NCBI GenBank assembly: GCA_030537855.1
Contig: JAUNVD010000007.1
Span: forward strand, 1-64,000
From: Tissierellia bacterium
GTDB taxonomy: Bacteria > Bacillota > Clostridia > Tissierellales > Peptoniphilaceae
DNA length: 64,000 bases
Direction: 5' to 3'
In this document: in pieces, positions 49,775 through 58,926 of the stretch
Layout: each line of letters starts with the position of its first letter
How positions within the stretch are numbered: the first letter of the stretch is position 1
Notes under the pieces: model-generated
The model's input: only the letters and a program-made list of their open reading frames with translations
Databases searched by the model: none
What the model was told of the DNA's origin: nothing
Made by a program: the position numbers and the translations under genes

Positions 49775-50013
49775 CCTTTAAATAAAAATATCCCTCACTC
49801 TATATAGAGACGAAGGACATTCGTGGTACCACTCTACTTTTTCTGTTTCACAGAACTTAGGCTCACCTTTTTGATAACGGATTTCCCGCTCATGATTTGA
49901 GAATATATGTGAAGTCATATTCTGAAAACTCCTTTACAAAGTCACACCAACCCTTTGTTCTCTGAAAAAATCATTTTCGTACTCTTTTCACAAATCTTTA
50001 ATATTAACGATAA
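49775..50013 (-). promoter_or_regulatory. methionine T-box leader of metG
   Basis: The minus-strand leader carries the T-box core AGTGGTACCACG (49833-49822) and the stem I distal segment GGGTTGGTGTGAC. A specifier-loop context AGAATATGACTTC contains ATG at 49918-49916, matching methionine. The core is followed by a terminator hairpin and T-run (ATATTTTTATTT) ending just before the metG ribosome site. Uncharged tRNA(Met) is expected to pair and prevent termination. Confidence 0.92.
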
Positions 50014-55928: not shown

Positions 55929-56141
55929 ATGAAATTAAGTGCAAGAAATACATTAAAAGGTAAAGTTGTAAGTGTGGAAACAGGTGCTGTCAATGGTATT
56001 GTAAAAATTGACATTGGCGGTGGGGTTATTATCACATCTTCTATTACCAATAATGCCATTAAAGAATTAGCTTTAGAAGAAGGAAAAGAAGCTTATGCTG
56101 TTATTAAAGCAAGTAATGTTATGGTTGGTGTAGATGAATAA
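55929..56141 (+). CDS. mop: Mop-type molybdate-binding protein (molbindin, TOBE domain)
   Basis: 70-aa single Mop domain: KLSARNTLKGKVVSVETGAV, then ITSSITNNAIKELAL and AYAVIKASNVMVGVDE. Such proteins assemble into hexamers that store molybdate or tungstate in the cytoplasm. It stands alone, about 12 kb from the nearest molybdenum operon, with AAGGAGG upstream and a terminator after it. Confidence 0.93.
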   Translation: MKLSARNTLKGKVVSVETGAVNGIVKIDIGGGVIITSSITNNAIKELALEEGKEAYAVIKASNVMVGVDE

Positions 56142-56143
56142 AA

Positions 56144-56197
56144 CCGCCTCTATAAAAGAGACGGCTTAGACCTAAGGTGAGTCCTTAGGTTTTTTTA
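56144..56197. terminator. back-to-back terminators for mop and ppa
   Basis: Plus strand: ACCTAAGG / CCTTAGGT (56170-56190) followed by seven T. Minus strand: CCGTCTCT / AGAGGCGG (56164-56144) followed by TTTTATT. Confidence 0.8.
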
Positions 56198-56722
56198 TAC
56201 AAATTTTTCTTGATAATGGTCCATAGCTTCTTGGATAATTTTTTTCGCTTCTTCCACACCATACACTTCTTTTACAGCTGTTTCTTTTCCTTCAAGTTCT
56301 TTATAGACTCGGAAAAAGTGACTAATTTCTTTACTAATATGTGTTGGTAGTTCTTCAATACTTTCATAATCTGCATATTCTGGATCAGCGGTTGGTACCC
56401 CTATAATTTTTTCATCAGGCTTTTCACTATCTACCATGATTAAAACTCCAATTGGTTTTACTTCCACTAAACTCATTGGTAATAAGGTTTCCGAACATAA
56501 AACTAATACATCAAGGGGATCATCATCTTTAGCATAAGTTCTAGGTATAAATCCATAGTTCGCAGGATAATGAGTTGAAGTATATAATACTCTATCTACT
56601 AATAACATTCCTGTCTTTTTATCAAGTTCATACTTTACATTTCCCTTTTTCCCAATTTCAATGACAGCCATAAATTTATTTACTCCAATACGACTATCTT
56701 CCATATCATGCCAAATATTCAT
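56195..56722 (-). CDS. ppa: inorganic pyrophosphatase, family I
   Basis: Soluble pyrophosphatase (175 aa), cleaving pyrophosphate to phosphate. Signatures: VIEIGKKGNVKYELDK, YPANYGFIPRTYAKDDDPLD with the metal-binding aspartates, and VDSEKPDEKIIGVP. Fluoride is a classic inhibitor of this enzyme family, and the gene lies in a fluoride-riboswitch operon, so it probably supplies extra enzyme under fluoride stress. The start at 56722 was chosen for GAGGAGG; it overlaps the antiporter gene by 17 bases. Confidence 0.94.
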   Translation of the reverse strand: MNIWHDMEDSRIGVNKFMAVIEIGKKGNVKYELDKKTGMLLVDRVLYTSTHYPANYGFIPRTYAKDDDPLDVLVLCSETLLPMSLVEVKPIGVLIMVDSEKPDEKIIGVPTADPEYADYESIEELPTHISKEISHFFRVYKELEGKETAVKEVYGVEEAKKIIQEAMDHYQEKFV

Positions 56723-57902
56723 GAAAACCCTCCTCAATTACTAAAAATTTCTGATACGTTTTTTCAATTAAAAATGCTCCTAATGGTGCTGTGATTAAAA
56801 TAGATAGTACAGCTACAGTAAGAGCCATATTTCCACAAGCTAAACCCATAGCTAGTGGTATTCCTCCAATAGCAGCTTGTACCGTTGCTTTTGGGGTATA
56901 AGCTATCATTGTAAAGATCTTTTCCTTAGTCGTGAAATTTGTTCCCAAACAAGAAAGAGCAACTCCTGTAACTCGAAATATTAGGGCTACTAAAATTAAT
57001 AGAACCGGGGCAAACCCAGCGGCAATAGCAAATTTTAGATTCACAGTTACCCCTACAAGGACAAATAACACTACCTCTCCTACTATCCATAGTTGAGATA
57101 CGCTTCTACCAAGTTCAAGGGATAATTCTTCATCTCCTCGTTTAATCCCAATACCTAAAAACATGATTGCTAATAAGGAAGCAAAGGGAATAGGAATAAT
57201 ATCTTCTACATAGGTCATAATAAATCCAATGGAAAAAATCAACATTAATTTTTTAGTATTTCCCATCTTAAATTTCTTCCAAAATTCTGTTAATAGTAGA
57301 CCAATGGCAAGACCAACAAAAATTCCTGTTACTAAAGAAATAGGAATATTATAAAAGCTAGCAGCTGTAATCTTTGTCCCTTTTACTAACCCAATAAATG
57401 CAGTAAATAGTACAATAACAAAAACATCATCTACTGAAGCACCAGCTAATATTAATTGTGGGATTCCCTTAGAAACTCCATACCCTTTTTCCAGTAATTG
57501 GATCATCTTTGGTACGATAACTGCAGGAGAAACTGCTGCAATAGTTGCACCTATCAACGCCGCTTCTGAAACAGTTACCCCTAGTAACTTTGGAGCTAGT
57601 AAGACAACTCCTATAATTTCAAAACAAGCAGGTAAGAAACACATCAAAATAGCAGGACGACCAATTTTATACAAATCATTTAGATTTAGAGATAGTCCAG
57701 CTCTCATTAAAATAATAATAAGTGCAATTTTACGTAATTCTGCAGAAATATTTAAAATAGAATCGTCTAATAAGTTTAATCCAAAGGGGCCAATCAAAAT
57801 TCCTGCAAGAATCATTCCAAATAATCCTGGAATATGAATTTTCTCTGCGATTTTAGCAAAGACCAATCCAAATAAAAAAATAAAAGCAATACTAATTAAC
57901 AT
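56706..57902 (-). CDS. cation:proton antiporter (Nha type) in a fluoride operon
   Basis: Monovalent cation/proton antiporter of the CPA superfamily (398 aa, about twelve segments). N-terminal GLVFAKIAEKIHIPGLFGMI and GILIGPFGLNL, the membrane-embedded ASVDDVFVIVLFTAF aspartate pair and the C-terminal TPKATVQAAIGGIPLAMGLA are typical. Antiporters of this type (NhaX) are a known gene class under fluoride riboswitch control, where they may relieve ion or pH stress from fluoride. The start at 57902 was chosen because TTTTGGAGG precedes it; the extra upstream codons lie inside the riboswitch. Confidence 0.9.
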   Translation of the reverse strand: MLISIAFIFLFGLVFAKIAEKIHIPGLFGMILAGILIGPFGLNLLDDSILNISAELRKIALIIILMRAGLSLNLNDLYKIGRPAILMCFLPACFEIIGVVLLAPKLLGVTVSEAALIGATIAAVSPAVIVPKMIQLLEKGYGVSKGIPQLILAGASVDDVFVIVLFTAFIGLVKGTKITAASFYNIPISLVTGIFVGLAIGLLLTEFWKKFKMGNTKKLMLIFSIGFIMTYVEDIIPIPFASLLAIMFLGIGIKRGDEELSLELGRSVSQLWIVGEVVLFVLVGVTVNLKFAIAAGFAPVLLILVALIFRVTGVALSCLGTNFTTKEKIFTMIAYTPKATVQAAIGGIPLAMGLACGNMALTVAVLSILITAPLGAFLIEKTYQKFLVIEEGFHEYLA

Positions 57903-57922
57903 AAAACACCTCCAAAACGCAG

Positions 57923-58013
57923 AAAAAGCTGACACCTTCTGCGTGTAATTGCAGAAGTCATCAGCTAAATAAGCGGTTTTGGCTAAGCCACGGGAGACAT
58001 CTTTCCCTTAGAA
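57923..58013 (-). promoter_or_regulatory. fluoride (crcB-type) riboswitch with terminator platform
   Basis: The minus-strand leader has the crcB aptamer pattern: GGGAAAGATGTCTCCC, an extra hairpin GGCTTAGCC, then AAAACCGC and finally GCTGATGACTTCTGC. GTC and GAC can form the pseudoknot. The last element (57965-57951) also pairs with GCAGAAGGTGTCAGC (57942-57928) followed by TTTTT, forming an intrinsic terminator that the folded aptamer would prevent. Expected outcome: fluoride switches on the antiporter and pyrophosphatase genes. Confidence 0.88.
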
Positions 58014-58017
58014 CTTT

Positions 58018-58046
58018 ATTATAGCATAAAGAAAATTTTTTGTCAC
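58018..58046 (-). promoter_or_regulatory. promoter of the fluoride operon
   Basis: Minus strand GTGACA (58046-58041), 17-base spacer, TATAAT (58023-58018). The predicted start lies at the first base of the aptamer. Confidence 0.75.
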
Positions 58047-58131: not shown

Positions 58132-58926
58132 ATGAAAAAAAGAATAGTATTTATCTTAGCAATTACAATGATCCTAAGTTTTGGAATGAATGTTTTTGCA
58201 AAACCAGAATCTGTCGATGCTCAAGTGTCAAAACAAAAGGTGACCTTTGATGACTTAGATGCTAAAATCGGGGCTTATAATATTCATGGAGAAAATTATT
58301 TTAAACTTCGTGATTTAGCAGCGTTAATCACAGGTACAAAGTCTTCCTTTAATGTTATCTATGACAAAAAAAGTGATTCTGTAACTATTATGACCAATGA
58401 AATTTACGAAAAACAAAAAGGAGATTTAGCACCTCTTCCCACAGGAAATAAAAAAGGTGTACCAACTCCTCAAAAATTATTTATTATCTATGTGGAAGAA
58501 CCGAATAAAACAAAACCTTTGGAAATCAAAGGATATAATATAGAAGGAAATAATTATTTTCGTCTACGAGATTTAGGTGAAAAAGTAGGATTTGGGGTTG
58601 CTTATAATTATAATACGAATACAGTTATGATTGATTCTGATTTTCCTGATATTAAAGATATTCCAAAAACCAATGATCAACCGGTGAACAAAAAGCCTAT
58701 TATAAAATTATTTGGATCTCCAAGAGCTTTTGAAACCATTGAAGCGAAAAAGATACTTGGTCGTTCTCATCATGGATTTGAATTTATGGACACAGATCAT
58801 AATCCAAAAGCAAAAGCAGAATTTGATGCTTTAGGAGGAGGGAAACTTCCTTTAATCGTCATTGGAGATACAAAAATATCCGGGTATGAACCAGAGAAAA
58901 TTTTAGAAGCCTTAAATAATTTATAA
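58132..58926 (+). CDS. exported stalk-domain protein with cysteine-less glutaredoxin-like tail
   Basis: 264-aa secreted protein. A signal peptide (about residues 1-23, ending NVFAKPE) is followed by two copper-amine-oxidase-N-like stalk repeats. Each has the pattern YNIHGENYFKLRDLAALITG or YNIEGNNYFRLRDLGEKVGF (about 40-90 and 120-165). The C-terminal 80 residues resemble a thioredoxin/glutaredoxin fold (IIKLFGSPRAFETIEAKKIL, then KLPLIVIGDTKISGYEPEKI with the cis-Pro). The position of the CxxC is occupied by SPRA, so it cannot be a normal thiol oxidoreductase. Likely a cell-surface binding or scaffold protein. Confidence 0.82.
   Translation: MKKRIVFILAITMILSFGMNVFAKPESVDAQVSKQKVTFDDLDAKIGAYNIHGENYFKLRDLAALITGTKSSFNVIYDKKSDSVTIMTNEIYEKQKGDLAPLPTGNKKGVPTPQKLFIIYVEEPNKTKPLEIKGYNIEGNNYFRLRDLGEKVGFGVAYNYNTNTVMIDSDFPDIKDIPKTNDQPVNKKPIIKLFGSPRAFETIEAKKILGRSHHGFEFMDTDHNPKAKAEFDALGGGKLPLIVIGDTKISGYEPEKILEALNNL

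Follow-up and report, generated by a model that had tools for sequence, protein, structure and literature searches.

A fluoride riboswitch-controlled NHA2-like antiporter as a probable substitute for CrcB in a Tissierellia bacterium

The 64,000-nucleotide (nt) stretch of a Tissierellia bacterium genome analysed here (GenBank assembly GCA_030537855.1, contig JAUNVD010000007.1, positions 1 to 64,000; hereafter, the window) carries, on its minus strand and in this order, a promoter-like site, a fluoride riboswitch aptamer, an intrinsic terminator, a gene for a cation/proton antiporter and a gene for an inorganic pyrophosphatase. The arrangement suggests a fluoride-induced resistance operon in which the antiporter probably stands in for CrcB as the principal fluoride-resistance transporter. 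The case for the antiporter as a replacement for CrcB comes from the pattern of co-occurrence of the two genes across genomes, together with the replacement of one gene by the other in shared slots. As a gene arrangement, the operon is already known in kind; what may be new is that the antiporter is read as replacing fluoride exporters.

The aptamer (57945..58016, minus strand) was identified with the covariance model RF01734, which aligns over its full length (1-64 of 64) with a score of 41.1 bits (expectation value 5.7e-8) against a gathering score of 34. It is the only RF01734 match in the host genome. The initial annotation had recognized the leader as a crcB/fluoride aptamer whose 3' strand is also used by a terminator, and both points are borne out: the sequence motifs it named are present, and the 5' arm of a 15-base pair (bp) terminator stem lies inside the aptamer. 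This arm (57965-57951) reads GCTGATGACTTCTGC, the conserved 3' segment of the aptamer, while the 3' arm (57942-57928) is followed by five T residues (57927-57923). The 43-nt terminator as a whole (57923..57965, minus strand) folds at -22.0 kcal/mol (z -5.58), and none of 200 shuffled sequences was equally stable; it was absent from the list given by a simple terminator scan of the region. A strict scan for shared-strand terminators, with 51 of 58 riboswitch loci as input, scored such a structure in 19 of the 51, among which those at L105 and L108 look false. Upstream of the aptamer is the promoter-like site GTGACA-17-TATAAT (58018..58046, minus strand), with a TG before the second hexamer. It is a consensus match only, at 11 of 12 positions, and the region has no excess of promoter-like sites (13 were found, compared with 11.0 in shuffled sequences).

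From its layout, the leader is predicted to be a fluoride-ON transcriptional switch. Without fluoride, it would form the 15-bp terminator and transcription would stop. With fluoride, the Mg-bound ion would stabilise the aptamer, the terminator 5' arm would be held, and RNA polymerase would pass; this is the known mechanism of the riboswitch class, read here from the anatomy of the leader. The Bacillus cereus crcB leader reportedly serves as the model of the crcB-type fluoride riboswitch. The window leader resembles terminator-bearing members of that type in having an aptamer above the cut-off and a terminator whose 5' arm comes from the aptamer 3' end. It differs in its cargo, an antiporter and a pyrophosphatase with no crcB, and in its pseudoknot (GAUGU/ACUUC), where four of five positions pair and the middle one is a U.U mismatch. 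For this comparison, 89 aptamers were considered and four that lacked a recognisable 3' motif were set aside; among the remaining 85, eight (the window's included) have U.U at the middle position, whereas 66 have A-U, U-G or G-U. Because of this mismatch, the response of the window riboswitch may be weaker than usual.

The antiporter gene (56706..57902, minus strand) encodes a protein of 398 amino acids that matches PF00999 with 127 bits against a cut-off of 26.2. Its start at ATG 57902 and that of the pyrophosphatase at ATG 56722 are likelier than the mechanical open reading frame (ORF) starts GTG 57935 and TTG 56737, because each ATG has a GGAGG-like site ahead of it; for the antiporter, this ribosome-binding-site-like sequence reads GGAGGTG (57907..57913). 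The description of the protein as "Nha-type" was correct at the level of the family and can be sharpened, since the solved structures nearest to the protein in sequence are those of mammalian NHA2/SLC9B2 (134.6 bits; PDB 7p1i and 7b4l), with MjNhaP1 (33.6 bits) and NapA (26.4 bits) far lower. Identity to NHA2/SLC9B2 is about 30% over the antiporter domain, and the stretches SxDD and PKATVQAAIG are common to both, although the mammalian protein is an animal Na+/H+ exchanger with a long N-terminal part. An AlphaFold model built with 55 sequences (predicted local distance difference test score 91.8, predicted template modelling score 0.87) matches Na+/H+ antiporter structures across nearly its full length. 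NHA2 is the top structure in Foldseek, whereas VIA-align places archaeal MjNhaP1 first (Z 44.5, 380 residues aligned, root-mean-square deviation 2.4) and NHA2 tenth (Z 39.7, 380 aligned, 3.2). The residues D158-D159, R310 and K338, the last a lysine in transmembrane helix 10, are intact; they presumably form the cation site, as in relatives. A modified cation site, which might have hinted at the transport of anions, was considered and rejected, these residues being conserved across 158 proteins: D158 in 157 of 158, D159 in all 158, R310 in 152 of 153 and K338 in 150 of 152, with gap rows omitted from the last two counts.

The pyrophosphatase gene (56195..56722, minus strand), whose start overlaps the end of the antiporter gene by 17 nt, encodes a family I enzyme of 175 amino acids (PF00719, 200.8 bits). 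Inspection of the sequence reveals the stretch DDDPLDV, which we take to be the family I active-site pattern. A terminator-like hairpin of 7 bp followed by TTTT lies 3' of the gene (56140..56164, minus strand); it was picked out by eye and is absent from the terminator-scan list. The enzyme would top up a class of enzyme that is inhibited by fluoride. No homologue was found near the antiporter in the fetched DNA of 69 loci from named genomes (61 with at least 600 nt downstream), and none besides the window's own in the family loci searched, of which L003-L032 include no more than a few hundred bases downstream of the antiporter. The idea of antiporter and pyrophosphatase as a conserved module was rejected on these grounds, and by this comparison the pyrophosphatase is a local addition and no conserved part of the riboswitch-antiporter unit. 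One genome, G221, has a pyrophosphatase two genes from its antiporter. A family II pyrophosphatase with DHHA2 was not found in the host genome, in a search that did not extend to a second family I enzyme or to membrane pyrophosphatases. Both genes had been assigned to known fluoride-riboswitch gene classes, in agreement with a 2024 review (PMC11139923), which names pyrophosphatase and Na+/H+ antiporters as common cargo and explains the antiporter by a role in pH homeostasis. The fluoride-resistance operon described for Enterobacter cloacae FRM (ppaC, uspA, eno, gpmA, crcB, orf5249; PMC5533749) is likewise riboswitch-driven and includes a pyrophosphatase. It differs in having CrcB and a set of enzymes, and none of the six genes is named as an antiporter.

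The host genome appears to have no recognisable fluoride exporter of the established kinds. CrcB was said not to adjoin the operon, which is correct, and PF02537 has no match anywhere in the assembly, which is 93.3% complete. We take the signature of CLC-F to be GREGT/V/A with GNN, GM or GTN, and that of the chloride type to be GREGP with GSGIP. The possibility of a hidden CLC-F was rejected, since the sole PF00654 match in the genome carries the chloride-type GSGIP and GREGP.

Across the 130 genomes of the host's family, the riboswitch is tied closely to the antiporter. RF01734 gave 65 matches in 62 genomes, five of them below the cut-off. Fifty-seven of the 65 lie upstream of an antiporter gene on the same strand, 55 at 31-152 nt and the other two at distances of 555 and 732 nt, and above the cut-off 57 of 60 riboswitches precede an antiporter. 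The three exceptions are followed by a contig end (G026), an apparent antiporter remnant (G079) and an ORF with no Pfam match (G086). As for the weak matches, that in G064 has downstream of it an antiporter truncated where the contig stops, that in G106 is close to crcB, and those in G007, G081 and G096 fall within or close to genes of unrelated kinds. Of 69 antiporter relatives from named genomes, one of which has no upstream DNA, 58 have an above-cut-off riboswitch upstream. In a sample of 358 genomes from the phylum, 23 of 30 antiporter genomes have a riboswitch at 208 nt or less by listed coordinates, and a direct scan added two (G300 and G337). All six relatives checked in plasmid records, down to 34% identity and from Bacillota, Fusobacteriota and Cyanobacteriota, carry the riboswitch.

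Several of these loci have features of their own. The locus in G086 (L003, 1501-2349) is a second fluoride riboswitch with 52.6 bits, the maximum of the family search; its cargo, an unusual one, is a 238-amino acid ORF without a Pfam match, followed by another ORF. The riboswitch before the antiporter remnant in G079 (L050, 281-733) is in a genome with no CrcB or antiporter match. On a plasmid of Peptoclostridium acidaminophilum (L327, 2326-4149), the riboswitch is followed by a gene for a CBS-domain protein, a possible regulator of the antiporter, and then by the antiporter. The antiporter query matches 804 plasmid records, mostly from Klebsiella and Escherichia, and the enterobacterial matches listed cover about 47% of the query. 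On a plasmid of Enterobacter hormaechei (L332, 4022-4570), the ORF of an NHA-like antiporter is shortened and has rmtB and blaTEM as neighbours, with insertion sequence elements on either side.

The distribution of the antiporter relative to CrcB provides the first line of evidence for replacement. In the family, 66 genomes have the antiporter and 25 have CrcB, and none has both (hypergeometric probability 1e-9). In the phylum sample, the antiporter was found in 30 genomes and CrcB in 155, again with no genome having both, where 13 would be expected (1.5e-8). Such exclusivity could arise artificially, from lineage, from habitat or from genes that escaped detection, and the slots described below could be insertion hot spots. 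The genomes are drafts, a first-look filter preceded scoring, relatives do not count as independent cases, neither gene is present in 39 of the 130 family genomes, and no exclusivity with CLC-F is seen. These concerns are countered by several observations. CrcB was detected in 25 family and 155 phylum genomes, every match being over the cut-off. Labels were shuffled within genera because relatives are not independent (with the genus limits for G097-G098 and G126-G127 inferred from neighbours), and zero overlap arose in only 59 of 20,000 shuffles, the mean being 3.0. Five genera (g2, g3, g34, g146 and g206) hold both kinds of gene, in different genomes. As a negative control, PF00654 matches as a whole, nearly all of the chloride type in the family, show no exclusivity with CrcB, occurring in 23 of 25 CrcB genomes with 17.7 expected. 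In the antiporter tree, where many forks are open, the window protein groups, with support, with proteins from Lachnospiraceae and Oscillospiraceae, and family f1 is scattered over several places, as repeated gain would look. An artefact is judged quite improbable. As a separate observation, 30 of the 142 riboswitch-bearing genomes in the phylum sample have no CrcB, CLC-F-type CLC or antiporter.

CrcB and CLC-F are known to be equivalent, and the overlap between them offers a positive yardstick. By motif, 14 phylum genomes have a CLC-F-type protein, 12 with GREGA/T/V and two (G143 and G259) with GRES preceded by KGM or KGTN; a stricter set of 10 leaves out four with a GTN stretch (G193, G259, G354 and G426). 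CrcB occurs in one of the 14 (6.1 expected) and in none of the strict 10 (4.3 expected). Weak CLC matches in four antiporter genomes (G176, G180, G365 and G440) are not CLC-F by motif. Within the family, typing covered 91 of the 92 genomes with a PF00654 match, with G069 left out and G081 ambiguous, and some of these CLCs have GMEGP or GLEGP with GSGIP or GSGVP. At four loci (L298, L299, L297 and L264), CLC proteins with GREGAALQ and GTN motifs fall between the CLC-F and chloride types.

The second line of evidence comes from slots in which one transporter gene takes the place of another. In family f46, the gene between recA and a metallophosphoesterase gene is crcB in G164 (L352) and the antiporter in G475 (L356); the flanking proteins are 87% and 75% identical, and three further genes outward are shared. 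The sole riboswitch match in G475 is below the cut-off. In genus g146, crcB in G237 (L340) and the antiporter in G421 (L339) each stand divergently beside the same four-gene block, which is 81-92% identical and shared on one side. In genus g65, CLC-F adjoins a 199-206-amino acid protein and a pyrophosphatase in G143 and G276 (L341 and L342), and in G221 (L343) the antiporter is beside the same two genes, 80-86% identical, with one further gene between. CrcB, RecA, the phosphoesterase and the first gene of the g146 block were named by Pfam, and CLC-F by motifs. There is precedent for such exchange in streptococci, where CrcB and CLC-F swap in one slot (PMC11077948). CLC-F (EriC-F) F-/H+ antiporters are also a precedent for a fluoride-specific branch within a transporter superfamily, although they belong to a different protein family from the window antiporter (PF00654 rather than PF00999).

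A number of findings weigh against the antiporter as a replacement exporter. The riboswitch association is incomplete: an upstream match is missing for nine of the 66 antiporters in the family, and 10 of the 69 named relatives have no fluoride riboswitch upstream even at expectation values up to 1. Both flanks are conserved in only one of the slot cases, that of f46, where crcB is oriented opposite to the adjacent genes but the antiporter gene in the same direction as they are, and the g65 case has one gene intervening. No shared slot was seen in the comparisons in genera g2, g34 and g206 and family f97, and same-slot replacement was rejected there. Lacking both CrcB and the antiporter is common, given the 39 family genomes with neither. 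The antiporter occurs in two of the 14 CLC-F-type phylum genomes (G134 and G193; 1.2 expected) and in one of the strict 10 (0.8 expected; the numbers are small), and the family genome G067 has the antiporter together with a CLC of the GREGA type, the fluoride role of which is uncertain. These counts weaken the exclusivity with CLC-F, whereas the CrcB/CLC-F count strengthens the yardstick. In Clostridioides difficile, a fluoride riboswitch precedes an operon of a CLC and an NhaP-type antiporter, possibly of another clade than the window protein (CD0656-7; PMC11477304). Lastly, the near-invariant D158, D159, R310 and K338 fit ordinary cation/H+ exchange.

A rival reading gives the antiporter only an accessory role in pH homeostasis, with hydrogen fluoride (HF) entry acidifying the cell, the induced Na+/H+ antiporter correcting no more than pH or ion balance, and fluoride leaving, if at all, elsewhere. 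Riboswitch-linked antiporters are seen in this way in the literature (PMC11139923), and the reading is consistent with the intact cation-site residues, with the Na+/H+ antiport of the solved relatives, with the antiporter beside a CLC-F-type protein in some genomes and with the single operon for CLC and antiporter in C. difficile. A helper should accompany CrcB, however, and this one was found with CrcB in none of the 66 family and none of the 30 phylum antiporter genomes; it occupies the place of CrcB in two genome pairs; and the host genome has no recognisable exporter to help. Since a helper should co-occur with CrcB and here does not, the antiporter is read as more than a helper, and a purely homeostatic role is considered unlikely. 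The initial annotation had offered two options, a tolerance rather than efflux unit or a contribution of the antiporter itself; the absence of overlap with CrcB and the occupation of CrcB slots favour the second, which is extended here to replacement of CrcB, and the first is not favoured.

If the antiporter does replace CrcB, it would lower cytoplasmic fluoride as the principal resistance transporter, as co-occurrence and gene replacement suggest, and there are two ways in which it might do so. In one, fluoride would be extruded by coupling to protons. In the other, a special case of the replacement reading, Na+ or K+ would leave in exchange for H+, shrinking the pH gradient that traps F- after HF entry, such that fluoride would leave as HF without being bound by the antiporter. 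Where a cell has no exporter, its fluoride is distributed according to the pH gradient (PMC11077948), so that cation/H+ antiport could be of help even if the protein does not bind fluoride. Such indirect emptying would fit the conservation of D158-D159, R310 and K338 and would account for the exclusivity with CrcB. Bacteria usually hold several cation/H+ antiporters, yet the riboswitch in the host's family is tied to one antiporter clade, and the emptying would be bounded by the external fluoride concentration. Indirect emptying seems somewhat unlikely, and proton-coupled extrusion is placed slightly ahead of it.

Published fluoride-riboswitch-linked Na+/H+ antiporters (Baker 2012, via PMC11139923; C. 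difficile CD0656-7, via PMC11477304) share with the window an antiporter behind a fluoride riboswitch and are assigned to pH homeostasis. The present case differs in that CLC-F and CrcB were not detected in the host genome, and in that no genome among those compared combines an antiporter of this clade with CrcB. The number of classes of fluoride export protein is given as two by a 2026 paper (PMC13104614). More tentatively, riboswitch-linked NHA2-like antiporters may constitute a third prokaryotic class beside CrcB/Fluc and CLC-F, extruding F- with protons, or a cationic Mg-fluoride species in exchange for protons; such a class, which we propose as a possibility and with some doubt, would be spread over Bacillota, Fusobacteriota, Cyanobacteriota and others, and would have displaced CrcB in place more than once. 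Among open-licence PMC papers, none that mentions fluoride and riboswitch together with "cation proton antiporter" came to light, and none among the matches listed examines whether an antiporter of this kind exports fluoride. If the replacement reading is true, gut and rumen anaerobes that seem to have no means of fluoride export do possess such a system, and human NHA2 has a relative that is a candidate for fluoride resistance by transport.

Two other features of the window may be noted. The divergent neighbour of the operon (58132-58926, plus strand) has a weak glutaredoxin-like C-terminal NCBIfam match below the cut-off and no Pfam family. Farther away, a T-box leader lies at 49803-49997 on the minus strand, with a score of 95.5 bits against a cut-off of 93.

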